Source: a virus
Length of the DNA: 41,679 bases
Direction: 5' to 3' (one strand)
Virus record (IMG/VR): IMGVR_UViG_3300032297_001097
Coordinates: 1 to 41,679 of that record
A program made the position numbers and the translations under genes. Numbering within the stretch: the stretch's first letter is position 1; every line of letters starts with the position of its first letter. The notes beneath the pieces are model-generated. The model was not told the origin of the DNA, made no database searches, and worked only from the letters and a program-made list of their open reading frames with translations. Positions 4,215 through 36,145 of this stretch are shown piece by piece.

Positions 4215-4228
4215 TGATTAAAAATAAA

Positions 4229-4262: not shown

Positions 4263-4271
4263 GAAATTAAG

Positions 4272-5198: not shown

Positions 5199-5947
5199 TT
5201 AATCATTTCCTCTGAAATTACATTGTCATCCAAAAAAGGATACATATCATGTAAACCGCATTGAATATTATACCCAGTTTGAGGATCTTTTTTGAGCATT
5301 AAAGTTGGAACTATTTCTTGATTAGGTTGACAAATAACTTCTATCAAACAAGGTGAATTGTTATTAATAATTTCAGTTGCTTTGTCTTTTAAATCTTGAT
5401 TTTTTTGAATTGAATAATAAGTAAATTCGTAAGCGTCAGCTATTTTTTTAATATCTGGGAACCATAGTCCGTCATCTGGTGATGTACCATATACTCTACC
5501 TTCATAAAACTTTCTCTGAGTATTTTTGATACTGAGGTAACCATTATTATTCCAAACAAAAATCTTGACTGGTATGTTTAAATTTCTAATTGTAGCTAGT
5601 TCTTGAATATTAGTGTTAAAGCTACCATCTCCTGTGAATACTAAAACATTTTTAGTGTCATCAGCCAAGTAAACACCAATAGAAGCGGGTAAGGCAAAAC
5701 CCATATCTGCCTGTGCTCCTGATAAAACAAATCTCTGACCTTCTTTCATTTTTAAGTTTTGAGAAGGAACATATATTGCAGACCCAGCATCACACACAAT
5801 AGTTTCTTTTGAAGTCATTTTTTCATTCATGATTTCTATGAATGTATATAAATTTAGACCTAATGTATCATCTTCGTATTCTTTCAAATACAAAGGCCAC
5901 ATATTTTTCCATTTTTTAGTTTTGCTTACCCAATCAGAAAGTGACAT
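5195..5947 (-). CDS. ThDP-dependent enzyme, C-terminal (PP) half, acetolactate synthase-like
   Basis: A 250-residue protein corresponding to the diphosphate-binding domain of the acetolactate synthase/pyruvate decarboxylase family. The ThDP/Mg motif runs from GDGSF (residues 106-110) to WNNNG (132-136), and GAQADMGFALPASIG precedes it. The PYR domain with the catalytic Glu is in the upstream gene, which overlaps by 14 bases in another frame. Together they make about 590 residues, a normal length for one chain. Either this is a true two-subunit enzyme, as in sulfopyruvate decarboxylase, or an indel in the T6 run at the junction splits one gene. TTAGGAG lies 12 bases before the ATG. In context it may transfer a two-carbon unit to a keto-sugar, like YerE. 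Confidence 0.8.
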   Translation of the reverse strand: MSLSDWVSKTKKWKNMWPLYLKEYEDDTLGLNLYTFIEIMNEKMTSKETIVCDAGSAIYVPSQNLKMKEGQRFVLSGAQADMGFALPASIGVYLADDTKNVLVFTGDGSFNTNIQELATIRNLNIPVKIFVWNNNGYLSIKNTQRKFYEGRVYGTSPDDGLWFPDIKKIADAYEFTYYSIQKNQDLKDKATEIINNNSPCLIEVICQPNQEIVPTLMLKKDPQTGYNIQCGLHDMYPFLDDNVISEEMIK

Positions 5948-6956
5948 TATTAAAAAATACTCCTAAATCACATTCAAAAAATTCATCAATATTAATTTTA
6001 TTTTTCTTAAATTCATTATTGTCAATATCTATTTGAGTTTTATATGAATTAGGAGAAAATAATTTTTCATCATATCCCGTATGAGAACAGTTCAGAGAAC
6101 ATCCTAAAATCAATAAATAATCACAGTTTTGTATAGCAAAATTACCAGCTCTTGAGCCTTTGATCCCAATACTTCCGAGATTCAAATCATGTTCATAAGG
6201 CAATAAGTCAATTCCCAAATAAGAAGTCACAAATGGTAAATTATTTTTTTCAATAAATTTTTTGAATTCTTCTGATTGGCCTGATAAGTAAACGCCATAT
6301 CCTGCTAATACCAAAGGCCTTTTTGCACTTTTAAGTTTAGAAAGATTGATAGGCGTAGAACCATAATCGTGATTAAGATTAAAACTAAAATTAGAAGGGT
6401 AATCAATATAAGCATGCTGTACATCACTTGGAATATCAATCCATACAGGACCCATTCTAGGAGACAAAGCTTTCTCAATAGCTTCTTTTAATATTTCAGG
6501 AGTTTCATCAGCATCTTCTACAAGTTTTGCAAATTTAGTAAGAGATTTTACTGTCGATATAATATCGCTCTCCTGTATTCCATACTTTCTTATGTTGCAA
6601 TCATTTTTCTTGTTGATGACTGAACTGCATTGTTCCACTTTGACATTTCCTGAAATAAACATAATTGGTAAAGAATCTTGCCAAGCATCTAAAAGTGGAG
6701 TTATGCAATTAGCACCTCCACAGCCAGTAGTTGGATTTACAACTGCAAGTTTTCTAGTTATTTTAGCTTCACCACATGCAGCATAACCAGCTCCTTGTTC
6801 ATGATGAGTACAGATATATTTTATAGATTTGTTTTTGATAAAGCCATCATTTAAACCGGCTGCACCTCCGCCCATAATGCCATAAACATTCTTTACACCT
6901 ATGCTGGACAATGTCTGAGAAATAAAATCACTTACTCTAATCTTGTTTTCTACCAT
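5934..6956 (-). CDS. ThDP-dependent enzyme, N-terminal (PYR and central) half
   Basis: A 340-residue protein matching the PYR domain and the middle domain of acetolactate synthase-like enzymes. The catalytic Glu53 is in HHEQGAGYAACG, followed by PTTGCGGANCITPLLDAW and, near 115-120, a polar segment with Cys and Asn that departs from the usual family pattern. The central domain (about residues 190-330) ends in LILGCSLN and QIDIDNNEFKKNKI, typical of this family. It stops where the phosphate-binding domain should begin, and that domain is supplied by the next gene. Its ATG overlaps the end of the 4,6-dehydratase gene by seven bases. Confidence 0.8.
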   Translation of the reverse strand: MVENKIRVSDFISQTLSSIGVKNVYGIMGGGAAGLNDGFIKNKSIKYICTHHEQGAGYAACGEAKITRKLAVVNPTTGCGGANCITPLLDAWQDSLPIMFISGNVKVEQCSSVINKKNDCNIRKYGIQESDIISTVKSLTKFAKLVEDADETPEILKEAIEKALSPRMGPVWIDIPSDVQHAYIDYPSNFSFNLNHDYGSTPINLSKLKSAKRPLVLAGYGVYLSGQSEEFKKFIEKNNLPFVTSYLGIDLLPYEHDLNLGSIGIKGSRAGNFAIQNCDYLLILGCSLNCSHTGYDEKLFSPNSYKTQIDIDNNEFKKNKINIDEFFECDLGVFFNNVTF

Positions 6957-7903
6957 ATAAAATTATCCTTGTAATATTCAACTATTTCAATAATTTCTGT
7001 ATCAAAGTCACAAGAAGGCTCCCATCCTAATCTTCTAATTTTTTGATCATTAAGTGCATATCTCACATCTTGCCCAGGACGCTCAACACCAAAATCAACA
7101 AACCTTTGATAATCTTCTATATCTTGATTATAGTATGCATTTATAACTTTTCTTACTGTCGTAATATTAGATTGCTCAAATCCCCCAGCAACATTATAAA
7201 TCTCGTTTTTTTGCCCTAGTTCAAGTATCTTTTCAACAGCTCTTGCAGTATCTTTTGCGTGTAGCCAGTTTCTAATAGGAGTACCTTGATTATGTAGTGG
7301 AATTTTTCTACCTAATCCTAAAAATTTACATGCTTTTGGAATTAGTTTTTCTACATACTGACCAACACCATAATTATTAGTAGGTCTAATAATGTTATAG
7401 GGAATATCATAAGTTCTTGCCCATGCTATTATAAGTTGATCTGCAGCAGCTTTTGTTGCAGAGTATGGATTACTTGGCTTTAATATATCTGTCTCAATAT
7501 GCTCTCCAGAAGAAATGTCACCATACACTTCATCTGTGCTAAAGTGAATAAATCTTGGGAGGACATAGCCTTCTTTTTTATATATCTTTAGTAACTCTAA
7601 AATATTATGAACACCATTAATATTTGAGTCAAGAAATACCCTGCTATCCCTAATGGAGTTATCGACATGTGTTTCAGCAGCTGTATTTATAAAATAATCA
7701 CAATCGACAAGTCTGTTTATGTCACAAATATTTTTTTGTTCAAATAAAAAATTGTCATATGTTTGAAATTTTTTCAATAAGTTCATGTCTGATGCATAAG
7801 TGCAGCAATCTATTCCATACACATAGAAGTCTCCACTTAAGAGAAGTCTCGTAACATGACTACCTATGAAGCCCAAACATCCTGTAACATATGCAATTTT
7901 CAT
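6950..7903 (-). CDS. rfbB: dTDP-glucose 4,6-dehydratase-like protein (RmlB family)
   Basis: A 317-residue extended SDR with strong RmlB features: TGCLGFIGS (residues 7-15, NAD binding), AAETHVDNS (75-83), FSTDEVYG with the Thr-Asp-Glu catalytic triad (123-125), Y147-SAT-K151 and IRPTNNYG. It converts an NDP-glucose to the 4-keto-6-deoxy sugar, the entry step for deoxysugars. The family usually uses dTDP-glucose, whereas the E1 enzyme encoded next to it normally uses the CDP sugar, so the nucleotide is uncertain here. It overlaps the E1 gene by four bases and is translationally coupled to it. Confidence 0.85.
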   Translation of the reverse strand: MKIAYVTGCLGFIGSHVTRLLLSGDFYVYGIDCCTYASDMNLLKKFQTYDNFLFEQKNICDINRLVDCDYFINTAAETHVDNSIRDSRVFLDSNINGVHNILELLKIYKKEGYVLPRFIHFSTDEVYGDISSGEHIETDILKPSNPYSATKAAADQLIIAWARTYDIPYNIIRPTNNYGVGQYVEKLIPKACKFLGLGRKIPLHNQGTPIRNWLHAKDTARAVEKILELGQKNEIYNVAGGFEQSNITTVRKVINAYYNQDIEDYQRFVDFGVERPGQDVRYALNDQKIRRLGWEPSCDFDTEIIEIVEYYKDNFIW

Positions 7904-9219
7904 AATTTATTTCTCATAAAATCTTGAACAATTTCTGAAATATAAGCTATTTGTTCAGGAGTAATAACTGGTGAAGTGCCTAAGAAAAAAGTGTTTGTCG
8001 TAACAAAGTTTGCTACTGGAAAATCTTTTAACTTTAAGTCTCCGATAAGATGAGAGTAGGCTGGCTGCATCAAAATATTTCCAGCAAAATAAGGCCTAGT
8101 CTGAATTTTCTTTGATTCTAAAAATTGACAAAATTCACTCCTACTAAATGGAGCGTCTTTCTTGATAGTTATTGGGAATGCAAACCAATTAACATCTGCC
8201 TTCTTTTCTGGTTTTGGTAAATGGAAATATTCTTCATACTCTTCAAAAACTTTAAATAAGAGTTTGTAGTTTCTTTTTCTGAGTTCTGAAATAGTGCTAA
8301 ATTTATCAAGTTGTGCAAGTAACATAGAAGCTTGCATTTCTATTGGCTTTAGATTAAAACCAACTTCTTCATAAACATACTTATGATCAAATACTTCACC
8401 AGGCATACTAGGAAGCCACTCTGAAAATCTAGTTCCACAAGCTCCACATGCTGAGAGGTTTTGTTTTCCATGACAAAAACATCCCCTTCCCCAATCACGG
8501 AAAGATCTAATCACTCGCTCCAGATTTTCATTATTACAAACTACTAATCCGCCTTCTCCGCATGTAATATGATGAGCTGGATAAAAGGAACAAGAAGCCA
8601 TCATTCCAAAGCTTCCTAATGGCTTATCATCATATGTAGAGCCTAAAGCATCACAACAATCTTCTAATAATATAAGCTCATATTCTTTGATTAAAAGCAT
8701 CAAATCATCCATATTAGGAGGATTGCCAAGAACGTGTGCAAATGTAATTATTTTTATTTCAGGATCATTTTCTAAAGCCGCTCGTACACAATCTATATCA
8801 AGATTTAATCCATCTAAAGTAATGTCAACAAAAACTGGCTTAAAATTACATTGAAAAATAGGATTTACAGTAGTTGGAAATCCTGCAATAGGAGTTAATA
8901 CTTTTGTGCCTTCTGGAAAATCTGTAAACCTCTTTGACTTTAGAGCAGACATCATAAGTAAGTTACTACTACTTCCAGAATTAGTGAGTAAACCAAACTT
9001 TTTATCAAACATACTGGCAAGTTTCTTTTCTGCCTTATATGCTTCTGCTCCTAATACAAGCCACCCATCAAGAAGGGTATTAACAGATCGTAAAATTTCA
9101 TTATTGTCAAAGAATGGTCCGGCATATTGAACATAATCTTTTCCAGCTCGCCATTCTTTTTTGGTACTAGAATCAAGAAAATTACTTAAAGTTTGAAATA
9201 GTTCTTCTTTTGATAACAT
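7900..9219 (-). CDS. rfbH: CDP-4-keto-6-deoxyglucose-3-dehydratase-like protein (E1/RfbH family)
   Basis: A 439-residue DegT/DnrJ/EryC1 fold protein with E1 hallmarks. The PLP-anchoring lysine is replaced by histidine in SFYPAHHIT (His217), just before GEGG. The cysteines Cys189, Cys247, Cys249 and Cys258 follow C-x57-C-x1-C-x8-C, almost the known E1 [2Fe-2S] pattern C-x57-C-x1-C-x7-C. E1 removes the C-3 hydroxyl of a 4-keto-6-deoxy sugar using PMP and electrons from a reductase (E3). No E3 gene is seen in this window. It is the first gene of the five-gene operon, lacks a Shine-Dalgarno sequence, and has TATAAT six bases before the ATG. Confidence 0.85.
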   Translation of the reverse strand: MLSKEELFQTLSNFLDSSTKKEWRAGKDYVQYAGPFFDNNEILRSVNTLLDGWLVLGAEAYKAEKKLASMFDKKFGLLTNSGSSSNLLMMSALKSKRFTDFPEGTKVLTPIAGFPTTVNPIFQCNFKPVFVDITLDGLNLDIDCVRAALENDPEIKIITFAHVLGNPPNMDDLMLLIKEYELILLEDCCDALGSTYDDKPLGSFGMMASCSFYPAHHITCGEGGLVVCNNENLERVIRSFRDWGRGCFCHGKQNLSACGACGTRFSEWLPSMPGEVFDHKYVYEEVGFNLKPIEMQASMLLAQLDKFSTISELRKRNYKLLFKVFEEYEEYFHLPKPEKKADVNWFAFPITIKKDAPFSRSEFCQFLESKKIQTRPYFAGNILMQPAYSHLIGDLKLKDFPVANFVTTNTFFLGTSPVITPEQIAYISEIVQDFMRNKL

Positions 9220-9225
9220 AAAAAA

Positions 9226-9231
9226 ATTATA
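9226..9231 (-). promoter_or_regulatory. -10 box of probable leaderless promoter for sugar operon
   Basis: TATAAT on the minus strand, preceded by TGG (extended -10) and followed by exactly six T before the ATG at 9219. A start site about seven bases after the box would fall on the A of the ATG. No Shine-Dalgarno sequence is present and no good -35 is seen. Confidence 0.6.
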
Positions 9232-9243
9232 CCACTAATTATT

Positions 9244-9969
9244 TTATGATATTTCATACAACCAATCAGAAAAATTTTTGTTATTTTTAAAATCAAAAGT
9301 AGAGTGACCCAAATCAAGTAATTCACAATTAATATCAACGTTAAAAACAAACTGAAATGAGCTTTCTGCAAACCATTCTGCAATTGGAACATCGTATTTC
9401 CAATGATCTAAAATCATTTCATAATACTCTTTTGGATTAGAAAGTATAGCTTCTTTTCTCAAAGCATAATGCCCATTTCTATAAAAAGCCCAAGGTTTAT
9501 ATGAGCTAATCTTTCCAAAAGGATCTAATAGCTTCATCCATTCATTCCAATTTACTGTGTTTGTAATAAAAAATTCATGATGACGCTGATTATAATTTGT
9601 TGGGCAATCATATATATTTGCTATAGTTTGTTGAAATGCTGGTTTAGACATATATTTATTATTTGGAATGTCACTATAATAATCTAGCATATTTTGAATG
9701 CCTTGTTCATTATTTTTCCATCCCATTTGTTCTTCAAGTGTTCCGTCCCATGGCCAAGCTTGAATAAAAATAGTAATGTCAGCTAAATTGTCATAATTCC
9801 TATAACAATGATATATTTGAGACGCGCCAAGCATTCCCAAATTAGGCAAATTTATTACATTATGACTAGAATTAATCTTTGGACCTTTATTGTAAATGGT
9901 GACATTTTCAAGATGATCAGCCCAAGAAACATCTTCTTTGTATCTTCCTAATACTATTTCTCTTGTCAT
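9244..9969 (-). CDS. DUF3431-like protein (glycan-related)
   Basis: A 241-residue protein with the pattern of DUF3431. It starts VLGRYKEDVSWADHL, then IYNKG, then LPNLGMLGASQIYHCYRNYDNLADITIFIQAWPWD, and has the late segment AFYRNGHYALRKEAIL. The family is often found near polysaccharide or glycosyltransferase genes and has no proven reaction that I know of. Its ATG overlaps the stop of the methyltransferase gene by four bases. The pair forms a small transcription unit between the capsid genes and the sugar operon, so glycan modification is the likely theme. Confidence 0.6.
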   Translation of the reverse strand: MTREIVLGRYKEDVSWADHLENVTIYNKGPKINSSHNVINLPNLGMLGASQIYHCYRNYDNLADITIFIQAWPWDGTLEEQMGWKNNEQGIQNMLDYYSDIPNNKYMSKPAFQQTIANIYDCPTNYNQRHHEFFITNTVNWNEWMKLLDPFGKISSYKPWAFYRNGHYALRKEAILSNPKEYYEMILDHWKYDVPIAEWFAESSFQFVFNVDINCELLDLGHSTFDFKNNKNFSDWLYEIS

Positions 9970-10661
9970 GTTATTCTCAAGTCATCGTATTCAAAAATAA
10001 GAGGATATTGTGCCTCTTGATGACATCCAACTACTTCTCCAAGATCATAAAATCTATATTGAAAATCGCCTTCCCACATAAATCCAATCTCAGTAAAATG
10101 TCCATCAGGCTTATTGATCTTCCAGCTATTAATATATTCCCAATAATTTGCTTTTTCAAATCCTCTGAAAACATTGTCCTTAATTGAGTAAATCCACTTA
10201 TGATGAAAAAAGCCTCTGTATCCTTGAACCCCATACCAATTTTCAAATCTCAAATATTCAGCATATTTTGATGGGACAGAAATAAATCCTCTCTTGGAAA
10301 TTTTCATCAACATATCACAAACTAATTTAGGATTTGTAATGTCTTCAAGTGTATGTGTGCAAATAGAATAATCAAATTTTCCATTCTCTTCTACATAATC
10401 TAAAACTGACTTCCAGTTATTTTCTTGAGTAATATCAAAATCAAAAAAATGTCTGTCGGGATGAGAAGCTAAAAATTCTTCTTTACTTCCCTCATTTACA
10501 AAAATATCTACAACGTGAGTAGTATATTTGCACCAAGAATTGATTCCTCCACCAACATCAATAACCTTAAGTGATGGATTTTCATTCTTGAGTTTTACAA
10601 TTTCATCGTCTACAAAATGTCTGTGTTCAGTAAATTTTCTTAGAACCTTATTTGTTATCAT
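9966..10661 (-). CDS. Class I SAM-dependent methyltransferase-like protein
   Basis: A 231-residue protein with a Rossmann methyltransferase start: VIDVGGGIN (residues 33-41, motif I), an acidic residue after the second strand (VVDIFV, Asp52), FDYSICTHTLEDI (motif IV region) and a following strand GFISVPS. A long aromatic C-terminal region (FHHKWIYSI, FYDLGEVVG) may bind the acceptor. Methyltransferases of this type in sugar clusters modify sugars or glycan ends, which fits the location. The gene starts without a Shine-Dalgarno sequence, seven bases after a TATAAT box, and follows the capsid-gene terminator. Confidence 0.65.
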   Translation of the reverse strand: MITNKVLRKFTEHRHFVDDEIVKLKNENPSLKVIDVGGGINSWCKYTTHVVDIFVNEGSKEEFLASHPDRHFFDFDITQENNWKSVLDYVEENGKFDYSICTHTLEDITNPKLVCDMLMKISKRGFISVPSKYAEYLRFENWYGVQGYRGFFHHKWIYSIKDNVFRGFEKANYWEYINSWKINKPDGHFTEIGFMWEGDFQYRFYDLGEVVGCHQEAQYPLIFEYDDLRIT

Positions 10662-10746: not shown

Positions 10747-11601
10747 TTACGCAACGGTAATTCTGGAAACTGCATAGTCGTTGATAAGAGCAAAACCGAG
10801 CTCTTCGTAAACAACCCATCCGAGTCTAAGTCTCTTTGGATCGTCTGCAGGAAGAACGGTGATGTCTTGTCTGATTGGCATTGCACCACAGAATTGAGCA
10901 GGAGCAAGAACGTAGACAGAGTTCTTAGGAACCATTGTGCTGACGTGGATGTCTGCTGAATAGATGTGACCGTAAAGACCAGTCATGAGGATGTCTCTTT
11001 GAGTAGCTTCATCAAAGAATTCCTTGCCCCAGTTTCTGATATCCTTGTATCTTTGTGGGTGAAGGACAACCTTAGCGCCGATGAGCTCATGCTCTTCGAT
11101 AAGGGTAAGCGCAAGGTTGATGTTCTCTGGTTGAAGAGTACCGGAAACAGAGATAGCTTGGTCAGTAGGCACACCAGCATTGATGACCTTAAAGACTTCG
11201 GTATCTTCTTGTCTTTGGAGGGAGTCCTTAGCACGGACTTGAGCTCTATCGACAATGTAGAATCTTCTTTGTCTGATCTCATTCAATCTGATTTGTGGAT
11301 GAGCAGCCAACTCGATGGTTGGAACAAGAAGCTCTTCTGCTTCAACTTCAGCTGCAGGAACGGAGCCTCTCTTAGGAATGACGTATGACTTTACAGCAAC
11401 GTCTCTCTCATATCTTGCAAGAGCGCCTTGTGGGAGCTCATCAACCATGAGAAGCTTTCTACCGATAGCTTGGTACATAAGGGAGGTCTTGATTGGCTCA
11501 ACCATTGCTTGAGCTAATGCTGTTCTGCCCTCTGGAGTCTCAAGAGCCATCGCGATGATGGATTCTCTTTGCTCATTTGTGTTTCTTTTAATCATTGACA
11601 T
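10747..11601 (-). CDS. Major capsid protein (HK97-fold)
   Basis: A 284-residue protein in the expected place, after portal, protease and scaffold-like genes. The helical N-terminus (residues 1-60) is followed by PKRGSVPAAEVEAEELLVPT, resembling an N-arm/E-loop region, then the P-domain helix of about 105-150, LIGAKVVLHPQRYKDIRNW (A domain) and YGHIYSADIHVSTMVPKNSVYVLAP near the end, a typical HK97-like C-terminal region. AAGGAG lies 11 bases before the first of two close ATG codons. Codons are visibly richer in G and C than in neighbouring genes, as expected for the most abundant protein. It has its own strong terminator. Family assignment is by position and pattern. Confidence 0.8.
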   Translation of the reverse strand: MSMIKRNTNEQRESIIAMALETPEGRTALAQAMVEPIKTSLMYQAIGRKLLMVDELPQGALARYERDVAVKSYVIPKRGSVPAAEVEAEELLVPTIELAAHPQIRLNEIRQRRFYIVDRAQVRAKDSLQRQEDTEVFKVINAGVPTDQAISVSGTLQPENINLALTLIEEHELIGAKVVLHPQRYKDIRNWGKEFFDEATQRDILMTGLYGHIYSADIHVSTMVPKNSVYVLAPAQFCGAMPIRQDITVLPADDPKRLRLGWVVYEELGFALINDYAVSRITVA

Positions 11602-12325: not shown

Positions 12326-13978
12326 CTAATCCTCAATTTTTGGCATTGTGAAAGCGCCTTTAAGGGCACTTTGTATGTCAAGAGCTGCACCGTTCGCAGT
12401 GTGTCCACCGCTAAATGCAGGAGTCGTCGAGATTCCAATATTGGAAGCTGTTCTAGTGCTTCTCTCTGCAGCAGCTGCTGCAATTCTTTCACTAGAAGAT
12501 TGTGCTGACTTGAGCAACAACTTTGTTTGTCTGATCATAGAATCAGCTTTGAGACCGTCATTGAGCATTTGCTCTGCGTAAGAATCAACTTCTTCAGTTG
12601 TAATGATGCCAGCTAAAGCTAACTTTGTTGAGCAGCTATAAGCTGTCTTAAGTCTAGCTGTGTCTAAAGAAGCAATTGAGCTATTGAATGTATTTGCTGC
12701 ATCGTTAGCTTTGCCCTTAGCGTTATTCAAATCTGCTTTAGCAGAATTGATACCAGAACTTAAATCTGCAGCATCATTGACTAACTCAGTTGTGCTCTCT
12801 GCGCTTTTTTCCATATCTGCATGACCTTCGTCAGATGCATTTGTTGGGCATTCTTTGTTAGCACATCTAGTTGCTGTATCATTCATTTCATCATCAGTCA
12901 TTGACATTCTTGTACCGCAAGCAGTACATTCAACTTCTGACTTAGCTGCAACGGTAGTCTTGTGAGGCATACCTGGCATTTGGGTAGGAACTTTGAAAAG
13001 ATTCTTGTCTTCGAGGCCTTGTGAAGGGTTAGTCAAGCTATCCCAATCAACTGTTACTTCCAATTCAGAGGTTCCTTCAAGCTTCATAGGCTTAGTAACA
13101 TCTGGGAACTGAAGTGAACCAGGATTGTTTGTTGGAATTCTTGATTCATTCCATGTTGGGTTTTGCTCTTTAAGTGAATTACCGCCATCATTTTCCAATG
13201 ACATTGTTGGGTAATCTACAGAACCTGGCATATTTGCCATGCTTTCGTTATGTTGGAATCCAGCTGACGTTTGCACAGTCTCTTCATCAGACGCAAGCTT
13301 CATGAGCATTTCTTCTCTCTCAGCTTTTCTGACAAGTGCTTCTCTAAGTGCTTTGCGCTCAGCTAATGTAGTTCTATTCATATCATTAACCTTTTTGCTT
13401 ATTTTAGTATTTTCTAAATTTTCATCATCTGATTCATCGTCTGAATCGTCATCATCATCAAAATGAGTAATGTCTTCATCATCATCGTCATCAGAATCAT
13501 CATCTCCGCTTAGAAGATTATCGAGCGCCTCTTGCACAGCTTTCTGTGCTGCATCAACCATTTGGGCGGGAACTTCAATTTCAAATACGGCGACATCATC
13601 ACTATTTTCATCTACATTCACATCATCATCCATGTCTTCCATGTCTTCATCATCATCTTCATCATCTTCTGCTCCCATATCAAGAGCTAAATCGTCATCA
13701 TCTTCTTCTGATAAATCATTTGTGAAGTCAACAGTCTCTTTACCATCTTCAAGGTCTAAGTTAGAAACTTCTAAACCGGCTTGTCTAACAACATTTGGAA
13801 GGTATTTTGATCTAATTGCGTTTGCTACAATAATCGCTTCATCTTTATTCAAAGATGCAGTTTTTTGCATATCTGACGCACATGCGATCAAATCCTCCTT
13901 ATCAGTTGCTTTGATTTCTGCTAATTTCATTGCTTCTAATTTGCTTTTAAAGTTGGCATTCTTTGAGTTTTTATTCAT
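12326..13978 (-). CDS. Scaffold/prohead-core-like acidic protein with Cys4 cluster
   Basis: A 550-residue protein between the prohead protease and capsid genes, the usual place of scaffold or core genes. Residues 90-190 are dominated by Asp and Glu (several runs of four to five Asp). Residues 200-225 form a charged helix. Residues 351-377 carry C-x2-C-x17-C-x4-C, a likely zinc site. Residues 390-520 are Ala/Asn/Lys-rich and predicted helical, as in scaffold coiled regions. An acidic, low-complexity core protein removed or cleaved by the prohead protease would fit. The unusual point is the metal site. Upstream lie two copies of GTATAAAACA, possible promoters. The antisense Ser-rich open frames across the acidic region are artefacts. 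Confidence 0.6.
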   Translation of the reverse strand: MNKNSKNANFKSKLEAMKLAEIKATDKEDLIACASDMQKTASLNKDEAIIVANAIRSKYLPNVVRQAGLEVSNLDLEDGKETVDFTNDLSEEDDDDLALDMGAEDDEDDDEDMEDMDDDVNVDENSDDVAVFEIEVPAQMVDAAQKAVQEALDNLLSGDDDSDDDDDEDITHFDDDDDSDDESDDENLENTKISKKVNDMNRTTLAERKALREALVRKAEREEMLMKLASDEETVQTSAGFQHNESMANMPGSVDYPTMSLENDGGNSLKEQNPTWNESRIPTNNPGSLQFPDVTKPMKLEGTSELEVTVDWDSLTNPSQGLEDKNLFKVPTQMPGMPHKTTVAAKSEVECTACGTRMSMTDDEMNDTATRCANKECPTNASDEGHADMEKSAESTTELVNDAADLSSGINSAKADLNNAKGKANDAANTFNSSIASLDTARLKTAYSCSTKLALAGIITTEEVDSYAEQMLNDGLKADSMIRQTKLLLKSAQSSSERIAAAAAERSTRTASNIGISTTPAFSGGHTANGAALDIQSALKGAFTMPKIED

Positions 13979-14046
13979 TTCTTGCTGCTTCCCTTAATAA
14001 AACTTTTTCTTTTATCAAAGCTTAGTTTTAAAACATAGTTATAAAC

Positions 14047-14080
14047 TGTTTTATACATTCTATGTTATTATGTTTTATAC
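14047..14080 (-). promoter_or_regulatory. Two direct copies of GTATAAAACA upstream of scaffold-like gene
   Basis: On the minus strand GTATAAAACA occurs at 14071-14080 and again at 14047-14056, 24 bases apart, 69-102 bases before the scaffold-like ATG. The core TATAAAA resembles the -10 boxes seen before other genes here, and no -35 is obvious. They lie just past the terminator of the protease gene, where a new promoter is expected. Confidence 0.45.
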
Positions 14081-14090
14081 CTTTTTTGAC

Positions 14091-14122
14091 AAAACAGGAG
14101 AGATGTTATTCTCTCCTGTTTT
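14091..14122 (-). terminator. Intrinsic hairpin terminator after protease fusion gene
   Basis: A perfect 13-bp stem (AAAACAGGAGAGA at 14091-14103, TCTCTCCTGTTTT at 14110-14122) with a six-base loop, eight bases after the stop codon. On the minus strand the stem ends in GTTTTG, a short U-tract. The plus strand has TTTTTT, so it may work in both directions. Confidence 0.85.
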
Positions 14123-14129
14123 TTATACG

Positions 14130-17100
14130 TTAATCTATCCAAGTAATAGAAACATCTAACTTAGTTGGATCTGTCTTTGAAGCAGCAACTCTTGTTTTTG
14201 AATAATTTCCACACTTATAGCAGAATGTATTGTCTTTTACTTTATGTGCATGTCTATTGCCACATGATGGGCAAACCATACCAATTGGAAGCATTCTTTC
14301 AGCTGTCTTGTCAAATGTAGGAAGCGCAGTCTTTAAGTAAACATCTGAATCAACAGTAGCAGAAAGTCTGATCATAGATTTGTAAGAACTTGCTGCCACA
14401 GGAGCAGGAGGAGCTGTTGCAGCACCAAGACCTGTATCGCCACCAAGTGGAGCCTCTTCTTCAACCATTTCGTCATTCTTCTTGCCCATTCCACCAGTTC
14501 CGTCAGAAATAAGCTTGAGCATCATTTCAATTTCAAATGCGGAACCACAACTATTACAAGAAGCCTTTGATTCAGCTACATCTACATCATTACTTCCACA
14601 AACTGGGCAAACACTACCCCAAGGCTTCTTCTCACCTGGTTCAGACATTGCATCTAATTCTGGCGACTGATTCATTTCACCGCCTGTGAAACCTGAAACA
14701 CCAAGGTCACCGCCACCTAAATTCGCACCAGCAGAAAGATCTCCAACTGGTCCAGCAGGAGGAGCGGCTGGAGCAGCACCAGGTGCGCCAGCAGGGGCGC
14801 CCATACCAGGAGCCATAGCATATTTTGAAAGAACTTCATCTCTTCTGGTTTTTCTAGCAAACTTTGCTGAATCACTCATAATGACAGGAATTTCTTCATT
14901 TTCAGGCTGCATATCTACAGGCTCAGCTACAGAATCAACATTGAATGTTTTAGTAACATTTGTAGAAACAGAAGCTGTAATATTGCCGTCTGCGTCTACA
15001 ACAAGATCAGTAAAACTAAATGTAGATGGATCAACAGTAAAGGAATGTTGTTGCAAAACTTCAATAGCTTTTTGCTTGAATGTTTCTTCAAATGAGTCAT
15101 CACTTGGATTTACTCCGCCCAAATCTTCTTTGGTGCAAACAAATCTTAAGCATTCCATCTTGCTTTGTGTGACATTCATCGCTGCAGTTCTTTCATTCTT
15201 CAATTTAACTGCAATTGCTTTTTCAATAAGCTTTTCTGCAACTTCGCCTTGAGCGCACAATCTCTTTGCAGCAGTAGCAATTCTGGTTGAGCTAATTTCA
15301 AAGTGTAATGAATAATCTGCGAGCCATCCAATCACATTTGATGTAATATCTTTTGAAGAAGCAGTCTTGATTCCCCAGAACTCTCTTCTTGCTCTTGCTC
15401 TTAGTCTTGCTTCTGTGGATGTAACTGTTTTAGCTCTGTTAATTGCAGCAACAAGATCTCTTTGTGGCATATCTTCTACAGTGCCAGCAACTTCATCAGG
15501 AGTGACCTTCATGTCATCAGCGGATTGACCCATAGCTGATATCGCTGCTTGAAGTGTAAGTTTGTCTACAAGTTCACTATCTTCAGAAACTTTATCAGAT
15601 AATGCTGCTCTAAGTTCTTCTGCTCTTGAAGGGGTTGCAGAAACATCCATGCCTTCTGCAGATGCTGATTCATTCTTAAGCATAACTTCAGCAAGAGACA
15701 TAACAGCTTCTTTAGTGACAGTACCTTCTTCAACTGCAACAGCAATTGCTTCAGCCAAATCAATAGGCTTAATGTCAGATTGAACTGCTGCTCCAAGCTC
15801 CTTGAGGATTGATGATACAGCATCAGGATTCTCTGATTTTTGGTTGAAGAAATCTGCTTTTTCAGCTCTATCAGCATCCATATCAACAGTTGAGGAAGCA
15901 GCTCCAATCATTTCTGGTAAATTTCGCTCTTCAGAAAGCATTTGTGCAACTTTCATTATGTAGCTTGGAGTTTCTTTTGCTGATACAACAGATCTAGCTA
16001 ATGCTTTGATTGTGCTTGACATTACTTCATGAGCACTGGCCTTACCACCAACTCTGCACTCTTCTAATTGTTTCTCTAATACTTCTGTTGGAACACCTTT
16101 GCAGACTTCATCAACGAGTTGTGAAAGAGATTTTGTAATTTCTTCGTGCTTTGATTTATGACCGTATAAACCAGCTTCTGCTAAAAGTTCTTCTCTGACT
16201 TTTTCATCAGTTCCTAAATGCTTTGTGGCAACTTCTTCGCCTCTGGTCTTGTCTGAAACGCCCTTATGATGTGCTTTTAATCCATCATAGGTAGACTTTC
16301 CATCGTAGCCTTCACCAGTTCTTACTTCATCAAGTTGTTCTTGTCTTGAGCCATCTCTGTCTTTGACATCAAGTAGAGCTGTTTTGACAAAAGTGCCATA
16401 ATCTTTGAGAAGATCTGCAGCAACTCTAGTGCCATGGCCATTCTCTAATGATGATAATTGACTCTCATTAAGAATTGGTTCCCAAGAGGTTCTCTTACCG
16501 TTTGTGTAACCTGTAATAGTTCCATCAGTTGAAAGAACAACTCTATTTCCTGCGTTATCTTCGACTTTAAAGTCGATAGTTACTGCAGCAGCAAGCTTTT
16601 TTCTTTGCTCTGATGCAATTTTAGCAAAATGATCCATTTGATTTGTGCTCCTCGCCTCTAAAGGCGTGTTAGTTTTTATATTTTTATTTCTTTCATTAGC
16701 CACTCTCATGACATTTTGAATTGAGTTATTTATGTCTGCTGTACCACTCAAGTTTTCCTTGAGTGACAATAAACTTTGCGCTAAATTTAGAAAATGATTT
16801 TTACTTTTATTTGTGCTTGCAAAAACTTCTCTCTTGCCGTCTCTAGAAGCCCAAACTAAGTTAATGTTTGAAGAGGCAAGTGCAACCCCTCCGCCAACTG
16901 GATTTTCAGGACTTGAAAAATTTGTAAAGTCCATTATTTTTCCAATATTATTATTTGAAGGACTATAATCAGCCAACCCAACTTGCGCTTGTTGTGGTTG
17001 AAGATTTTGAGGTTGAGCTTGTTGTTGTTGTGGTTGGTTTATAGGTTGTGGAGCTTGCCCAGACCCCACGTCGATTCCGTCATCAATCATGTCTTGCATA

Positions 17101-18266
17101 GTGCTTTGAAGGTCAGCCATAGATTTAGTAATTTTTCCAACATGACCTAAATCTACATTGTCCTTACGAGCAAACATGTTCATGACAGCTACTTCTAGGA
17201 AGTTTAATGATAAGTTGATAAGATCTAATACATTTAATCCAGATCTTGGATCAATGCCTAAAGCTTGAAGTACTGCAGCAACGGTAGAGTTTTGATTAGC
17301 ACCTTGACCAGCTAAAAGTGGTCCGCCTACTAATGTGCCAGCAACTTGTGCCAATCTTGTAGCTGTACTTGCAGTTGAATTAGCTACTCTTAAGCAATCT
17401 TCATATTGCTTTCTTTCATTTGGTTGAGCTGGGCAACCTTGATGAGCTAAAACAATTCCAGCAATTACTTCTGATGCTCTCTTCTCTAAATCTGTTGCAA
17501 GACTTAAGACATCATCAACATCATAAATTTCTTGAATTTCACAAGATTCAAAAGCTCCATCTCCTACACAACTAAGCTCAATGAATTTAACACCATAGTT
17601 TTTTTCATAAGCTCTTTTGCCAGTTTCAGGATAAATTTTGCCTTTATATTTTCTTAAATGTTCACAATAGTCTTTTTCAGTATATGCTTTATTGTTACAT
17701 ATTGAACAAACACCCCATTCAACACTTGCACCCATAGAAACATCATGAATTACGCCTGTTCTGATGTTTCTGGCAATGTCAGGATATGCTTCCTCATCAA
17801 CAAAGAAAGTACAATATACACAATTTTCTTCATCATTCCATTCTGAATAAACAACCATTCCTTTGGCTTGCTCAATGTCATCATTTTTATGATTTGTATA
17901 TATAGGCACTCCCTCAAAAGTTTTATAAACTGGGATTTTTTCGCCTTTGATTTCTACTTCTTTGAGTAATTCTTCTTTAGAGAATAAGTCACCATTTGCA
18001 TTTACAACATCTGCATCAATGGCTCTTGCTCTTACCCATAAAAGCTTAGCACCTTTACGTGCTTGCATTTCTTTAACAATATCAAAATCTTTATATTTTT
18101 CAAGAACATCTTTTGGATCAGCATAAAGAGATTGCAAACCAATTTTTGCTGCTTCTCTCATATTTACTGAAGCAGTTTTGATGATATAATCTCTTGCTAT
18201 ATTTCGGTCCTTTTCATTGAGGTAACTATTTATTGTAATAGCCCCTCCTTTTGCAACCTTGTACAT
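14130..18266 (-). CDS. Giant prohead protease fusion protein with two C-terminal zinc ribbons
   Basis: A 1378-residue protein. Residues 70-250 look like a prohead protease of the HK97/T4 gp21 type: His126 in IYTNHKN and Ser177 in HDVSMGAS have the expected spacing, and the Cys187/Cys190/Cys201/His203 group adds a zinc-like site. Residues 400-430 are Pro/Gln-rich. The middle is long, acidic and helical and contains three degenerate QLxExR-like repeats (about residues 630-745). A Pro/Ala/Gly linker precedes two zinc ribbons, Cys1220/1223/1237/1240 and Cys1332/1335/1349/1352. Usual proteases have 200-300 residues, so about 1100 residues are extra, perhaps a fused core or scaffold that is autocleaved. 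AAGGA precedes the ATG. Confidence 0.7.
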   Translation of the reverse strand: MYKVAKGGAITINSYLNEKDRNIARDYIIKTASVNMREAAKIGLQSLYADPKDVLEKYKDFDIVKEMQARKGAKLLWVRARAIDADVVNANGDLFSKEELLKEVEIKGEKIPVYKTFEGVPIYTNHKNDDIEQAKGMVVYSEWNDEENCVYCTFFVDEEAYPDIARNIRTGVIHDVSMGASVEWGVCSICNNKAYTEKDYCEHLRKYKGKIYPETGKRAYEKNYGVKFIELSCVGDGAFESCEIQEIYDVDDVLSLATDLEKRASEVIAGIVLAHQGCPAQPNERKQYEDCLRVANSTASTATRLAQVAGTLVGGPLLAGQGANQNSTVAAVLQALGIDPRSGLNVLDLINLSLNFLEVAVMNMFARKDNVDLGHVGKITKSMADLQSTMQDMIDDGIDVGSGQAPQPINQPQQQQAQPQNLQPQQAQVGLADYSPSNNNIGKIMDFTNFSSPENPVGGGVALASSNINLVWASRDGKREVFASTNKSKNHFLNLAQSLLSLKENLSGTADINNSIQNVMRVANERNKNIKTNTPLEARSTNQMDHFAKIASEQRKKLAAAVTIDFKVEDNAGNRVVLSTDGTITGYTNGKRTSWEPILNESQLSSLENGHGTRVAADLLKDYGTFVKTALLDVKDRDGSRQEQLDEVRTGEGYDGKSTYDGLKAHHKGVSDKTRGEEVATKHLGTDEKVREELLAEAGLYGHKSKHEEITKSLSQLVDEVCKGVPTEVLEKQLEECRVGGKASAHEVMSSTIKALARSVVSAKETPSYIMKVAQMLSEERNLPEMIGAASSTVDMDADRAEKADFFNQKSENPDAVSSILKELGAAVQSDIKPIDLAEAIAVAVEEGTVTKEAVMSLAEVMLKNESASAEGMDVSATPSRAEELRAALSDKVSEDSELVDKLTLQAAISAMGQSADDMKVTPDEVAGTVEDMPQRDLVAAINRAKTVTSTEARLRARARREFWGIKTASSKDITSNVIGWLADYSLHFEISSTRIATAAKRLCAQGEVAEKLIEKAIAVKLKNERTAAMNVTQSKMECLRFVCTKEDLGGVNPSDDSFEETFKQKAIEVLQQHSFTVDPSTFSFTDLVVDADGNITASVSTNVTKTFNVDSVAEPVDMQPENEEIPVIMSDSAKFARKTRRDEVLSKYAMAPGMGAPAGAPGAAPAAPPAGPVGDLSAGANLGGGDLGVSGFTGGEMNQSPELDAMSEPGEKKPWGSVCPVCGSNDVDVAESKASCNSCGSAFEIEMMLKLISDGTGGMGKKNDEMVEEEAPLGGDTGLGAATAPPAPVAASSYKSMIRLSATVDSDVYLKTALPTFDKTAERMLPIGMVCPSCGNRHAHKVKDNTFCYKCGNYSKTRVAASKTDPTKLDVSITWID

Positions 18267-18396: not shown

Positions 18397-20757
18397 CTAC
18401 AAATATTCTTCTTCAGAATTTTGAGATCCTGTTCTTCTCTTAATTACTTGCAATAAGACATTTATACAGTCTTGAGGATGATCATTTAATTCTTTATCAG
18501 TAAATCTGACAATAATCCATCCTTTACTTGCTAATTCAGAATCTCTTCTCTTATCTTTAGCAATTTTATCTGGATTGTTATGCCAAATTTCTCCATCTGC
18601 CTCAACGCCAACCTTTAAGTTTGGAATAGCAGCATCTAACTGGTAATCAAATGTTGGCCCAGCTGAATACTGTGCATATAATGAATAGGGCATATTTAAG
18701 CTCATAAGCATGCCATAAAGTTTTTTCTCTAATGAAGTAAACATTTGAGGTTGTGCTCTATCAAGCTTCTTAGCTAAAACTTGTCTAACACCAGTATCTT
18801 CAGACTGTGCAAGAACAGAAAGTTCATAATTTGCTTCATAGTTCAAAGCTACTGAATTCATGCCACCAGCGATTGGCTCTACCAGATTTCCATACAATCC
18901 ATCATATTTCTCAGGTAATGGCCCTAATGTACCTCTACCAGTGACAGGAGAAATAGACATCAAGAAGCCTTCGTGTGCTGCTGATTTAATATTAGAGCTT
19001 GCATATCGATTGTTAGATCTTGATAATTTGGCTGATACTCTTTCGTTATAAACATCATTAATAATGGTTGAAGCAATCTTATAGAATCTATCTTTCTCAG
19101 CAGCAGTAGGCATCGGTGGAGGAGCAGCTGGTGCTGGAGGAGGACCACCTGCTGCAGGAGCACCTCCAAGTGGAGCTTGTGGCATAGGTGGTTCCATTGG
19201 CATCTGACCAGCGCCAGCCCCAAAACCCTGTCCAGTGACTGGTCCACTTTGCAAATTTAATGAAAAGGCTGGTGTTCCAAAACTTTGATCACTGATAAAG
19301 TTTGCACCTTGCTCAAACCTCAGTCTTTCAATTTCTTGATCTGAGTCTAAACCAAAAGCCTCAATTAATGAAACGTTTGAAATAACACCATTTTGATTTG
19401 CAGTTACAAGCATTTGGAGCTTGCCAGTATCATCTCTTAATTGAAGATCATCAAACTTAATTTTAGGATAGACAAGTTCATCCTGTCCTCTTTCACCTTC
19501 AATTACAAATCCATTCCACTCAGCTACAGGCTTAAATACACATTGCTCAACCCAGTGTGCAACCTCTCTTCTAAAGGTTTCAAGTCTTTGAGCCATAGCA
19601 AGCAAACCAACTTGAGCATTTCCATAAGTTGGCCCTTCGCCATTAAGTAAAGCTTTGTTGAGCATGACACCATCTAAAATTTCTTGCTCAATTAGTTCAA
19701 ATTCTCCGGTTAGTGGATGAATCTTACCAGTAGCTCCATACCATTCCATATCAAAGTTATGGTGGGTAACAAGGGTCAAATTTGGGTCATTAGCAATTGA
19801 TGCTAACTCGTCTTGAACATTGTCAATATCTTCTTGTGATGCTGGTCTTGTATCGCTTCCAATTTTTACAACCTTAATTGGAATAATCAATCTTTCAGCA
19901 ATCATGTACTGAGCTTGACGTAATTTATCTTTATAGGTCAAGATTGGGAATAATGGCCTAATCATAGAAACGCCATAATCTTCCCAAGGGTTTGAGCCAT
20001 GCTTAAAATGATGAATTGAAATAGGACTTAACTTAATTGGATCCCCTTTCATAATCATTTTTTTAACATCATCAGGAATAGAATCATAAATTTCTTTTGG
20101 ATGTCTTTCATTTATGATTCTGACTTCTTCTGCTGATGGTTTATATGCATAGGAGCCAGGTTGGTCAATCATTCCTGGAGTTTTTATAACACTGTCAGGA
20201 TTGAGGATTGAAATAGATTTCCAAGTTGCACCATCATGCTTACAAGGCTCGTTTTTGTTACCGTCCCAGTTTGAGCCATTACAGTGCTCACATTCAATGG
20301 ACAAAAGTACAAATGAATCACCTAATAAGTGATAAGCTTGTGAAATTTCTGGAAGCCATTTTTGGAAGTTTAACTTTTCAACTAATTTTTCAAAATAGTC
20401 TTTTACGTATGAAGATGAGCATTCAAGCTTCCATCCAGAAAAAGGATAGTTTTTATAAAAGTTGATGGCAGCAGCAACTTTTGGCTCATTGTTTTTCCAC
20501 CACGATGCCCAAAGATAAACTTCTCTTCTAGCGTTTGGGATTTGGAAAGATGAAGGGGTTAAGAATGGAGAATAAAAGTTTGGAGCAGTGGTGATAGTAT
20601 TTGTACTAGCTGACCTAGATACAGAAGGGCCAAGTCCTAATCCAATTCTACTACTTGCATATCTTTGTTCAGATGGTGAGCTTGCAGATGATTTCTCACC
20701 AGCAACTTGAGTCGCTGAAGTTCTAATAGCAGCTGCCAAAGATGTTCTATTTGCCAT
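18397..20757 (-). CDS. Portal protein fused to DUF559/Vsr-like nuclease domain
   Basis: A 786-residue protein. Residues 75-500 look like a portal: YLWASWWKNNEPKVAAAINFYKNYPFSGW, long helices (QAQYMIAERLIIPIK), and a Cys156/Cys159/Cys172/His174 insertion. Residues 525-560 are Pro/Ala-rich. From about residue 673 a separate domain follows the DUF559/Vsr-like PD-(D/E)xK pattern: TSLEKKLY, Asp704/Asp708, then VEADGEIWH (Glu719, Asp721, His726), then DKRRDSELASKGWIIVRF. These are the usual core residues, so the nuclease looks intact. Portals are commonly 400-600 residues. The gene has no Shine-Dalgarno sequence and a TATAAT box seven bases before the ATG. Confidence 0.8.
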   Translation of the reverse strand: MANRTSLAAAIRTSATQVAGEKSSASSPSEQRYASSRIGLGLGPSVSRSASTNTITTAPNFYSPFLTPSSFQIPNARREVYLWASWWKNNEPKVAAAINFYKNYPFSGWKLECSSSYVKDYFEKLVEKLNFQKWLPEISQAYHLLGDSFVLLSIECEHCNGSNWDGNKNEPCKHDGATWKSISILNPDSVIKTPGMIDQPGSYAYKPSAEEVRIINERHPKEIYDSIPDDVKKMIMKGDPIKLSPISIHHFKHGSNPWEDYGVSMIRPLFPILTYKDKLRQAQYMIAERLIIPIKVVKIGSDTRPASQEDIDNVQDELASIANDPNLTLVTHHNFDMEWYGATGKIHPLTGEFELIEQEILDGVMLNKALLNGEGPTYGNAQVGLLAMAQRLETFRREVAHWVEQCVFKPVAEWNGFVIEGERGQDELVYPKIKFDDLQLRDDTGKLQMLVTANQNGVISNVSLIEAFGLDSDQEIERLRFEQGANFISDQSFGTPAFSLNLQSGPVTGQGFGAGAGQMPMEPPMPQAPLGGAPAAGGPPPAPAAPPPMPTAAEKDRFYKIASTIINDVYNERVSAKLSRSNNRYASSNIKSAAHEGFLMSISPVTGRGTLGPLPEKYDGLYGNLVEPIAGGMNSVALNYEANYELSVLAQSEDTGVRQVLAKKLDRAQPQMFTSLEKKLYGMLMSLNMPYSLYAQYSAGPTFDYQLDAAIPNLKVGVEADGEIWHNNPDKIAKDKRRDSELASKGWIIVRFTDKELNDHPQDCINVLLQVIKRRTGSQNSEEEYL

Positions 20758-20764
20758 AACTTAA

Positions 20765-20770
20765 ATTATA
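20765..20770 (-). promoter_or_regulatory. -10 box of probable leaderless promoter for portal gene
   Basis: TATAAT preceded by TTGGG and followed by seven bases (TTAAGTT) and the portal ATG at 20757. It overlaps the stop codon region of the gene upstream. Confidence 0.55.
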
Positions 20771-21143
20771 CCCAAGTTTGAGATGAAGGAGCGCTCTTTT
20801 CTGTGAATAAGCCTTTGTTTCTAAGCGCTAAGTATCTTCCTTCACCTTTGAACATGTGAATATCAGAATCAGTTTGATTTAGTGTGTTTCTAATTGGTGT
20901 TTCATTATCAGGAAAATTCATTCTAAGTTGTTCTTCTGTAGTCAAATTTTCTGGGGATAATGAATCTGATTTAGGCTGAATTTCAGAAATTTCATCATCA
21001 ATATTAGTATTAATAATTGATATATTTCCAGGATTTAAAATGCTCATATTTTCTGGAGCTATAACAGAAACAGTTGAGCCGTCATTGCTTTGCTTTTCCT
21101 GTTTAGCAACACCAAAGGCAGCTTTGACGACTCTATACCACAT
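20766..21143 (-). CDS. Hypothetical protein with MWYR N-terminus
   Basis: A 125-residue, mostly polar protein (many Ser, Asn, Glu) lacking predicted domains. It begins MWYRVVKAAFGVAK, a short basic-hydrophobic helix like those starting the small proteins at 40656 and 41118, then becomes low-complexity and probably disordered. It sits one base after the previous gene's stop and eight bases before the portal start, so it belongs to the head operon and is probably a virion or assembly protein. AAGAG precedes the ATG. Function unknown. Confidence 0.5.
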   Translation of the reverse strand: MWYRVVKAAFGVAKQEKQSNDGSTVSVIAPENMSILNPGNISIINTNIDDEISEIQPKSDSLSPENLTTEEQLRMNFPDNETPIRNTLNQTDSDIHMFKGEGRYLALRNKGLFTEKSAPSSQTWV

Positions 21144-27993: not shown

Positions 27994-30117
27994 TTATCTA
28001 AACCTTCCACTAAGATTTACTAATTTTGAGCTAGGAAGTCTAGACATAATCTTTGATGTTGTGCACTCATATGAAACTGCTGCTACGGCATCACAAATGT
28101 CATCTTTATAACCTTTGAGTGCTTCTATATAGAATCTTTTGCCTTTCCATATTTTTTGTAGATATTGAAATTGAATTTTTGCTTCTTGGACTTCATTAAG
28201 ATCTATTTTTTTGCCTGACGCATCTTCATTAAATCCAGAAGAAAGATCATATACATCAATTCTGTCTTCTCTAATCAACTGTGAAAGTTCAGAATAAATT
28301 TTTTCTTTATATTCTTTGTTAAATTGTCTTTCTACAATAGGAATTCCACGAGCTTGCAACTTGATAACTGATGTTTGTGAATTCCACTGGTCAATGCTAA
28401 CTTGCTTAAATCTGAATTTAGCATGTAAACTGATGACATATTCTTCAACTTCTCTTTCAGATACAGGTTGATTTTTAGACATAGGATTCCAGAAATGGAT
28501 ATGGTCAATAACAACCCTTTTTAATGGCTTGAAGTCTGGACCAATACTGTTGTATATACTTTCTGCATGAGCTACTACTAAAGCATAATAATCAGATGTT
28601 CTTGCTGGATCTAAGTGACAATAATATTCATAAAGGCCATCAGACTTTTCTTTTCTAGGAACCATTGACATAGAACTAAACATTCTTTGAATATCATCTG
28701 GAGAGAACATTGGATCTGAAGAAGCAGCTCCAAACTCAGCTCCATACTGCATTTGAAATTCAACTGGGTTCTTCTTTTTCTCACCTTCAAGATATTCTTT
28801 ATCAATGTTAGGATTTGATAACCAAGTAGGCATTCTCATGATTAACGTTGATGGATCATCTAATCTATTTTCATGTAAATCATAAAGTAATCCAAGTGGA
28901 CCTTTTGGGTTTGAAAGCATCATAATTTTGCCGTCTCTACCAAATGTAGCTAATGATGGCTTCAAATCGTTATAAAGGGCATAATCAACGCCAGAATCAG
29001 GGCTATCCCCAGCCATAGCAGCAATCTCGTCCATGATGATGCACCAACAAGTAAGACCAACAAGACCTGATGCACTACTAGAACCACATTTAAGAACAAG
29101 AGAGCCTGAAAATGGATTCATGCCTTGATTTATTCTGCGATCATTTTCTCTTCTATCATTTTCAGTGTAGAATCTCATTTCAAGCTCATTATCTTTACCG
29201 ATATATGGCTGAAAGAATGGAGAAGACAAAACAGTATTTTTTATTTTTGCAAAGATAGCATTTTTAGCCTGTTCTTCATTTTTAGCTACATTTAGAAGTG
29301 TAATCTGATCAAATTCCATCAAGCCATATCTTGCTTGAGGATGACCCATTGCGATTAGTCTGTATAGCTCATAAAGGGCAATAGCAGAAACAAGGAACGA
29401 CTTTCCTGAACGTCTTCCGAGAACTAGAACAAGCTCTTGAAATTTAAATCTTTTTTCACATTTATCAAGAATTTGTTTTCTAACTTTTTGATCTAGCTCT
29501 TCTGCAAAAAATAAGTCTCTCTCGCATTGATAGTTTTCAATAATTGGTCTTTGGGAGAGCTCATTGATTATTCTCTCTGCATCAGGGTTAGTTGCTTCTT
29601 CTTTAGCAACGTTGTATCTTTCTTGCCTGACATCATCTGGTAATTTAGTACATATAAGACATGGAGAATTTTCAACTGTAAAAAGAGGTTTTATAAATTT
29701 GCCTTCTTTTCTTTTCTTCATAACATCTATTTCATTTTTGCTAATATGTTCCCAAACACAACCTTTACAAGAAGATCTTTCCTCTTGTGGGACATCATTG
29801 AAAAATATATTTGTATTGCCTTCTTGTCCCATATAGAAGCATTTTAATATAAGTCTCTGCCAAGGGTGAGGTTTAAGATTGCAAAAGAATGGATGCTCAA
29901 TAAAAGTTACAATATCTACAATTTGATCTGGATTAAATCTAGTTTTTTCAGGAGTAACTGGAGGAGATACTTCTGTTCTTGTTTGAGGAATGATTTCATC
30001 TTCAAAATCAGCAGCATATTCCGAGTCTTTAAACAGCTCAGTAACATTATTAGCTTGCTGCAAAAGTTGTGTCTTATAGTCTATATGATTTTGTTTTGCA
30101 GTATTTATTTTTCTCAT
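27994..30117 (-). CDS. terL: Terminase large subunit
   Basis: A 707-residue packaging motor. The ATPase has Walker A GRRSGKS (residues 234-240) and Walker B IIMDE (360-364), with SNPKG (402-406) as coupling motif. The nuclease is RNase H-like, with Asp503 (HLDPA), Asp576 (SIDQW) and Asp672/673/676 (YKDDICDA) as metal ligands. The N-terminal 220 residues carry Cys117/Cys120 and Cys153/Cys156, a zinc-like site not usual in terminases. The ATG shares a base with the preceding stop (TAATG), so translation is coupled to the methyltransferase gene. It cuts concatemers and drives DNA into proheads at the portal. Confidence 0.95.
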   Translation of the reverse strand: MRKINTAKQNHIDYKTQLLQQANNVTELFKDSEYAADFEDEIIPQTRTEVSPPVTPEKTRFNPDQIVDIVTFIEHPFFCNLKPHPWQRLILKCFYMGQEGNTNIFFNDVPQEERSSCKGCVWEHISKNEIDVMKKRKEGKFIKPLFTVENSPCLICTKLPDDVRQERYNVAKEEATNPDAERIINELSQRPIIENYQCERDLFFAEELDQKVRKQILDKCEKRFKFQELVLVLGRRSGKSFLVSAIALYELYRLIAMGHPQARYGLMEFDQITLLNVAKNEEQAKNAIFAKIKNTVLSSPFFQPYIGKDNELEMRFYTENDRRENDRRINQGMNPFSGSLVLKCGSSSASGLVGLTCWCIIMDEIAAMAGDSPDSGVDYALYNDLKPSLATFGRDGKIMMLSNPKGPLGLLYDLHENRLDDPSTLIMRMPTWLSNPNIDKEYLEGEKKKNPVEFQMQYGAEFGAASSDPMFSPDDIQRMFSSMSMVPRKEKSDGLYEYYCHLDPARTSDYYALVVAHAESIYNSIGPDFKPLKRVVIDHIHFWNPMSKNQPVSEREVEEYVISLHAKFRFKQVSIDQWNSQTSVIKLQARGIPIVERQFNKEYKEKIYSELSQLIREDRIDVYDLSSGFNEDASGKKIDLNEVQEAKIQFQYLQKIWKGKRFYIEALKGYKDDICDAVAAVSYECTTSKIMSRLPSSKLVNLSGRFR

Positions 30118-36139: not shown

Positions 36140-36145
36140 ATGCAA

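Follow-up and report, generated by a model that had tools for sequence, protein, structure and literature searches.

The portal protein of the phage studied here ends in a Vsr-like/DUF559 nuclease domain, and this portal-nuclease fusion is a conserved, lineage-defining trait of a large clade of huge phages. It was found in the window, that is, the whole stretch of 41,679 nucleotides analyzed (IMG/VR record IMGVR_UViG_3300032297_001097). The initial annotation had proposed that a portal and an intact nuclease of this type are joined there in one protein, and this is borne out for the clade as a whole. Both domains are already known; the combination is apparently new. The annotation knew of no described example, and we likewise found no portal-nuclease fusion in an open-access literature library; a description elsewhere is possible.

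The coordinates first given for the gene were exact, and its coding strand is the minus one. The 786-aa translation has no internal stop, whereas the plus strand is stop-ridden. The features needed below are as follows.

27994-30117, minus strand: large terminase with its own nuclease domain (phrog_2, E 4e-27), separate from the portal nuclease.
18397-20757, minus strand: fused portal-nuclease gene, 786 aa in one open frame, with at least 117 distinct fused relatives.
19297-20589, minus strand: portal core, residues 57-487, with clip, stem, wing and crown (phrog_16240, Portal_Mu, AlphaFold model).
19099-19296, minus strand: flexible linker rich in Gly, Pro and Ala, residues 488-553 (sequence; pLDDT <50 over 489-553).
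18757-19098, minus strand: weakly conserved helical stretch, residues 554-667 (conservation, AlphaFold model).
18400-18756, minus strand: Vsr-like/DUF559 C-terminal nuclease domain, residues 668-786 (Pfam, AlphaFold, Foldseek, hmmsearch).
18580-18729, minus strand: putative catalytic residues E677, D708, E719, D721 and H726 (conservation in 113 distinct domains).
14130-18266, minus strand: head maturation protease with a long C-terminal extension, the next gene after the portal (phrog_18299, E 2e-20).
10747-11601, minus strand: major capsid protein (phrog_2522, E 1e-67).

The portal core is recognized by the PHROG portal family phrog_16240 over residues 56-420 (E 5e-34) and by the Pfam family Portal_Mu at 219-468 (E 7e-9, 35.8 bits vs a cut-off of 23.9), and portal-family matches together span residues 56-489. 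When the full-length AlphaFold model was compared with the PDB, the portals of lambda, T4, HK97 and SPP1 were retrieved (best E 5e-9, TM by target about 0.4-0.6). The gene lies between the terminase gene and those for the head protease and capsid. The terminase has a Walker A motif at 234 and a Walker B motif at 360, and it keeps its own nuclease domain, as had been claimed: residues D503, D576, D673 and D676 are present and invariant in all distinct relatives covering those positions. Therefore the portal nuclease adds to the terminase and does not replace it.

Other genes of the window deserve a record. Beside the capsid genes, positions 2602-10661 hold a metabolic cassette. Two of its products pass their model cut-offs, namely PanB (ketopantoate hydroxymethyltransferase; equivalog cut-off) and an RfbH-type aminotransferase; the others are a sugar dehydratase, an epimerase and a split enzyme resembling acetolactate synthase. 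Positions 35144-36145 encode a short adenylosuccinate synthetase homologue of 333 aa which retains the Asp of GDEGKGK; its product looks PurA-like, and the PurZ model scores far below its cut-off. Small ORFs starting with MWY[KR] or similar occur at 20766-21143, just upstream of the portal, at 40656-41117 and at 41118-41477, and ORF starts of this type are also found upstream of the portal in the contigs L016, L040, L342 and L422. In the related contig L044, the head protease gene (12649-17952) has an apparent intein (CFPKGTL ... VHNC), as read from its translation alone.

The C-terminal domain was compared with known nucleases at the level of sequence families and of predicted structure. Pfam DUF559 matches residues 673-772 (E 4e-7, 30.5 bits vs a cut-off of 20.6). 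The family MTES_1575 (PF18741) matches 704-771 with E 4e-9 and 37.0 bits, just below its cut-off of 38.2, and passes it in the relative L131 (39.6 bits). Nuclease-family matches together span residues 668-781, the domain itself being about 668-777. In the AlphaFold model of residues 551-786, built on an alignment of 18 relatives, this region forms an alpha-beta-beta-beta-alpha-beta core with pLDDT of about 75-90, so that the restriction-enzyme-like core expected of a PD-(D/E)xK nuclease, whose absence would have refuted the initial reading, is present in the prediction. The top Foldseek match in the PDB was the Vsr-like homing endonuclease I-Bth0305I (3r3p, E 4e-4, TM by target 0.73), accompanied by the DUF559 protein 3hrl (TM by target 0.81) and by RAP-type proteins of mitoribosomes. 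An hmmsearch profile run against PDB sequences retrieved the same two nucleases, 3hrl with E 9e-6 and 3r3p with E 1e-5.

The motifs TSLE, VEADGEIWH, DKRRD and VRF, on which the initial annotation had relied, are all found in the 786-aa protein. Its statement that the PD-(D/E)xK acidic residues are intact was correct as to the residues, but the pattern, E..D..E-x-D..H..D, is the Vsr/EDxHD version of the fold and is without the classical Lys. It had also placed the nuclease after a Pro/Ala-rich linker; the linker exists, yet it does not adjoin the nuclease directly, because about 115 weakly conserved helical residues intervene. Residues 481-560 are poorly conserved among relatives (lowest pairwise identity 0.27). 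In the nuclease, residues E677, D708, E719, H726, D735, R738, D739, G746, W747 and R751 show no variation among 113 full-length domains, some of which have as little as 27% identity to the window-type domain; Q696 (98%) and D721 (97%) are nearly invariant.

I-Bth0305I is the representative of the EDxHD family and has a metal-dependent mechanism resembling that of restriction enzymes (PMC3943268). The portal domain appears to share its E, D, H, D pattern, the corresponding residues being the invariant E677, D708, H726 and D735. From this intact active site, the C-terminal domain is predicted to be a catalytically active, metal-dependent endonuclease of the Vsr/EDxHD branch. DUF559/MTES_1575 proteins and I-Bth0305I resemble it in fold, active-site pattern and profile matches; however, they stand alone, are encoded in introns or are joined to other enzymes, whereas the portal domain is joined to a structural virion protein and vertically inherited.

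How widely is the fusion distributed? IMG/VR was scanned with the complete protein, with its nuclease and portal-core parts separately, and with deeper alignments. Other portals with this nuclease tail, for which the initial annotation had suggested a search, proved numerous: at least 117 distinct nuclease-domain sequences lie in fused portal ORFs, on contigs of up to 548 kb. Since so many distinct relatives on many contigs have the same fusion, chance is excluded and an artefact of sequencing or assembly is rejected. Among the matches listed in the portal-core-led scans, every clade portal not cut by a contig end had the nuclease, with L044 as the exception. A stop between the two domains, named at the outset as a result that would speak against a fusion, was seen in none of the at least 117 distinct relatives apart from this contig, where the frame is continuous but for a single in-frame TGA in the linker. 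Since TGA also serves as a normal stop on this contig, recoding was rejected and the two parts may be separate proteins; alternatively, the split may be an assembly error. A tblastn search of 50,697 phage records with four portals and the tail domain gave no fused portal, and the fusion is accordingly not a common feature of known isolates. A prophage or host origin was also rejected, as no relative turned up when 84,980 bacterial and archaeal genomes were scanned twice.

In a tree of 61 portal cores, a branch with 100% SH-aLRT separates the fused portals from all others, which requires one change; the tree was made by a quick method without bootstrap and has long branches in four outgroup rows. 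The nuclease was gained once, in the ancestor of this large huge-phage clade, and then kept. Portal core and nuclease have been inherited together, without any sign of domain swapping: their pairwise identities are correlated with r = 0.96 (Mantel p 0.001). The nuclease is under purifying selection, with dN/dS of 0.069 against 0.053 for the portal core in 122 moderately diverged pairs.

A scan led by the phage G portal identified the sister groups without the nuclease as the phage-G group, with contigs up to 504 kb, and a group with a Gly-rich tail. We found no free-standing gene for such a nuclease within about 4 kb of the sister-group portals. The nearest isolate portal is gp14 of Bacillus phage G, whose match is confined to residues 1-487. 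This protein and its huge-phage relatives share a homologous portal core with the fused clade (29-34% identity over about 430-490 residues) and have a Pro/Gly-rich C-terminal tail, but they lack the nuclease domain.

Many of the fused genes are enlarged. Of the 117 distinct fused portal ORFs, 45 are longer than 900 aa, and one to several inteins apparently account for the extra length; L126, L127, L129, L130, L132, L346, L393 and L412 are among them, and intein or LAGLIDADG matches were found in all three long ORFs tested. Near the C-terminus of the portal ORF in L346, L393, L400 and L423, an intein lies within the VE/IE-CDG..WH active-site motif, between the catalytic Glu and the next Asp. 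Inteins typically occupy highly conserved functional sites.

We infer a crown-side position for the nuclease, a stoichiometry set by the portal ring and a substrate preference. Portals are rings of 12, so a polypeptide which is both portal subunit and endonuclease would bring about a dozen nuclease copies to each head. The full-length model has three helices at 444-489, which by portal topology probably occupy the place of the C-terminal crown. In T4 the head encloses the stem, wing and crown of the portal, and packaged DNA is in contact with the crown (PMC9958956). With the crown there, the linker would start inside the head, and the nuclease copies would leave the portal on flexible tethers at the end where DNA enters the head.

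What could a nuclease do at this place? The initial annotation had put forward three candidate roles: to trim the ends of packaged DNA, to degrade DNA that is not the phage's, or to cut host DNA after ejection. Our leading answer, which we hold tentatively, as possible rather than probable, is DNA processing tied to genome packaging. Acting in addition to the terminase nuclease, the domain would cut branched, nicked, mismatched or surplus DNA, so that a clean genome is packaged. Vertical inheritance without swapping, the near absence of losses and the unchanged active site point to a set task in building the virion. The inteins within the active-site motif of four relatives also speak for packaging, because such a site is typically highly conserved and functional.

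Phage T4 offers two partial parallels. Its endonuclease VII (gp49) binds the portal gp20 and releases stalled branched DNA (PMC9958956), and is thus a nuclease working at the portal, as the fused domain would be. However, it is a separate protein of unrelated fold, and the Pfam scan found no endonuclease VII family (PF02945) in the fused portal. The gp4 protein, needed for T4 packaging and virions, is likewise a second, non-terminase nuclease of restriction-enzyme fold (PMC7824862), but it is a separate small TnsA-like protein; its family, phrog_218, is absent among the matches of the fused protein, while T4 gp4 itself matches with E 1.5e-62. Against the packaging role stands the geometry. Judged from homologous portals, the C-terminus points into the head, while branched DNA and the headful cut are found on the other side, outside, where the terminase is. 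A nuclease inside would have to extend through the channel, or its action would be limited to DNA already in the head. The interior location argues against a direct copy of endonuclease VII or gp4 and favours release and ejection of the nuclease. It is rather doubtful that the clade has a second, obligatory packaging nuclease in the portal ring, by which DNA would be inspected or cut from inside the head on entering or leaving.

The packaging role was also considered against the resolvase content of 14 fused-clade contigs (255-548 kb) and 3 phage-G-type contigs, all metagenomic. DUF559 is present at the portal in 14/14 and 0/3 of them, respectively. RuvC was found in 0/14 fused-clade contigs vs 2/3 of the phage-G type, and RecU in none of the 14. 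Endonuclease VII passes its cut-off in two of the 14 with one more weak match, RusA in two with two more weak; together, one or the other is over cut-off in four contigs and weak in three more. The remaining 7/14 have no RuvC, endonuclease VII, RusA or RecU match at E<=0.001, and there another debranching enzyme would be useful; these absences are weak evidence because the contigs may be incomplete. The domain is not a simple replacement for a missing Holliday-junction resolvase, an idea only partly supported, since 7/14 contigs contain a resolvase match, even if sometimes a weak one. The absence of Pox_A22 and of T4 gp4 (phrog_218) matches carries no information, as the controls were silent. 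In the records of the closely related L206 and L207 (476 and 296 kb), a second DUF559 gene with a 303-residue frame lies away from the portal.

The release favoured by an interior location leads to the main rival explanation, which we judge somewhat unlikely: the nuclease is loaded into the head via the portal, freed in the linker by a putative cleavage by the head maturation protease, and ejected to cut host or competitor DNA. A crown-side C-terminus would put it inside the head, the linker is long and unstructured, and the protease gene is next door. MuF proteins, some with nuclease toxin domains, sit at the portal and are proposed to be co-delivered with phage DNA (PMC5576092; PMC3482391). 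They are similar in being portal-associated head proteins with a C-terminal enzyme (PMC5576092), but are encoded by a separate gene after the portal, belong to temperate phages and carry varied, swapped toxin domains; no MuF domain was found in the fused portal by the Pfam scan. Swapping of this kind is contradicted here, for whereas polymorphic toxins exchange their C-terminal domains, one domain type is present throughout and its divergence tracks the portal core. The phage's own DNA would also require protection. Vertical inheritance, lack of swapping and strong constraint fit a fixed role in packaging or maturation better than an arms-race effector, without being decisive.

A further candidate role is quality control, in which the nuclease would destroy head DNA lacking the phage's own modification and so block packaging of host or rival DNA. 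The domain sits where incoming DNA passes, its fold is common to restriction enzymes, and the relative L344 has a weak match to the methyl-directed mREase_II; we nevertheless consider this role quite improbable. Very unlikely, too, is a purely DNA-binding role, such as sensing a full head or a DNA end. RAP domains are among the structural matches of the model and show that the fold can be a nucleic-acid-binding module (PMC11879112), and portals of other phages are described as sensing packaged DNA (PMC5290284). Yet binding alone would not demand that the acidic and His active-site residues be 100% conserved (D721, 97%). That a gene targeted by selfish elements captured a homing endonuclease domain at its end, and now keeps it as a relic or passenger, is highly improbable. 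The domain's nearest solved relative is indeed the homing endonuclease I-Bth0305I, and the 45 of 117 overlong ORFs, with matches in the three tested, are consistent with inteins. But a single gain, vertical inheritance, dN/dS of 0.07 and no losses beyond one possible split are not the pattern of a mobile element; the single gain and the joint descent with the portal core likewise speak against a patchy, horizontally spreading homing element.

Portals are usually viewed as passive conduits or sensors, and cutting is credited to the terminase. A nuclease fixed to the portal throughout a large, diverse clade, with its catalytic residues preserved, implies DNA cutting at the portal in these phages, whether the cut belongs to packaging or the nuclease travels as cargo. 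The fusion is also a sequence marker for an apparently uncultured phage clade with contigs of up to 548 kb. It suggests that virus assembly or infection includes a DNA-processing step not yet described. If either reading is true, there would be an added step in how huge phages make or launch their virions; if it is packaging, this would be an assembly step absent from current headful-packaging models.
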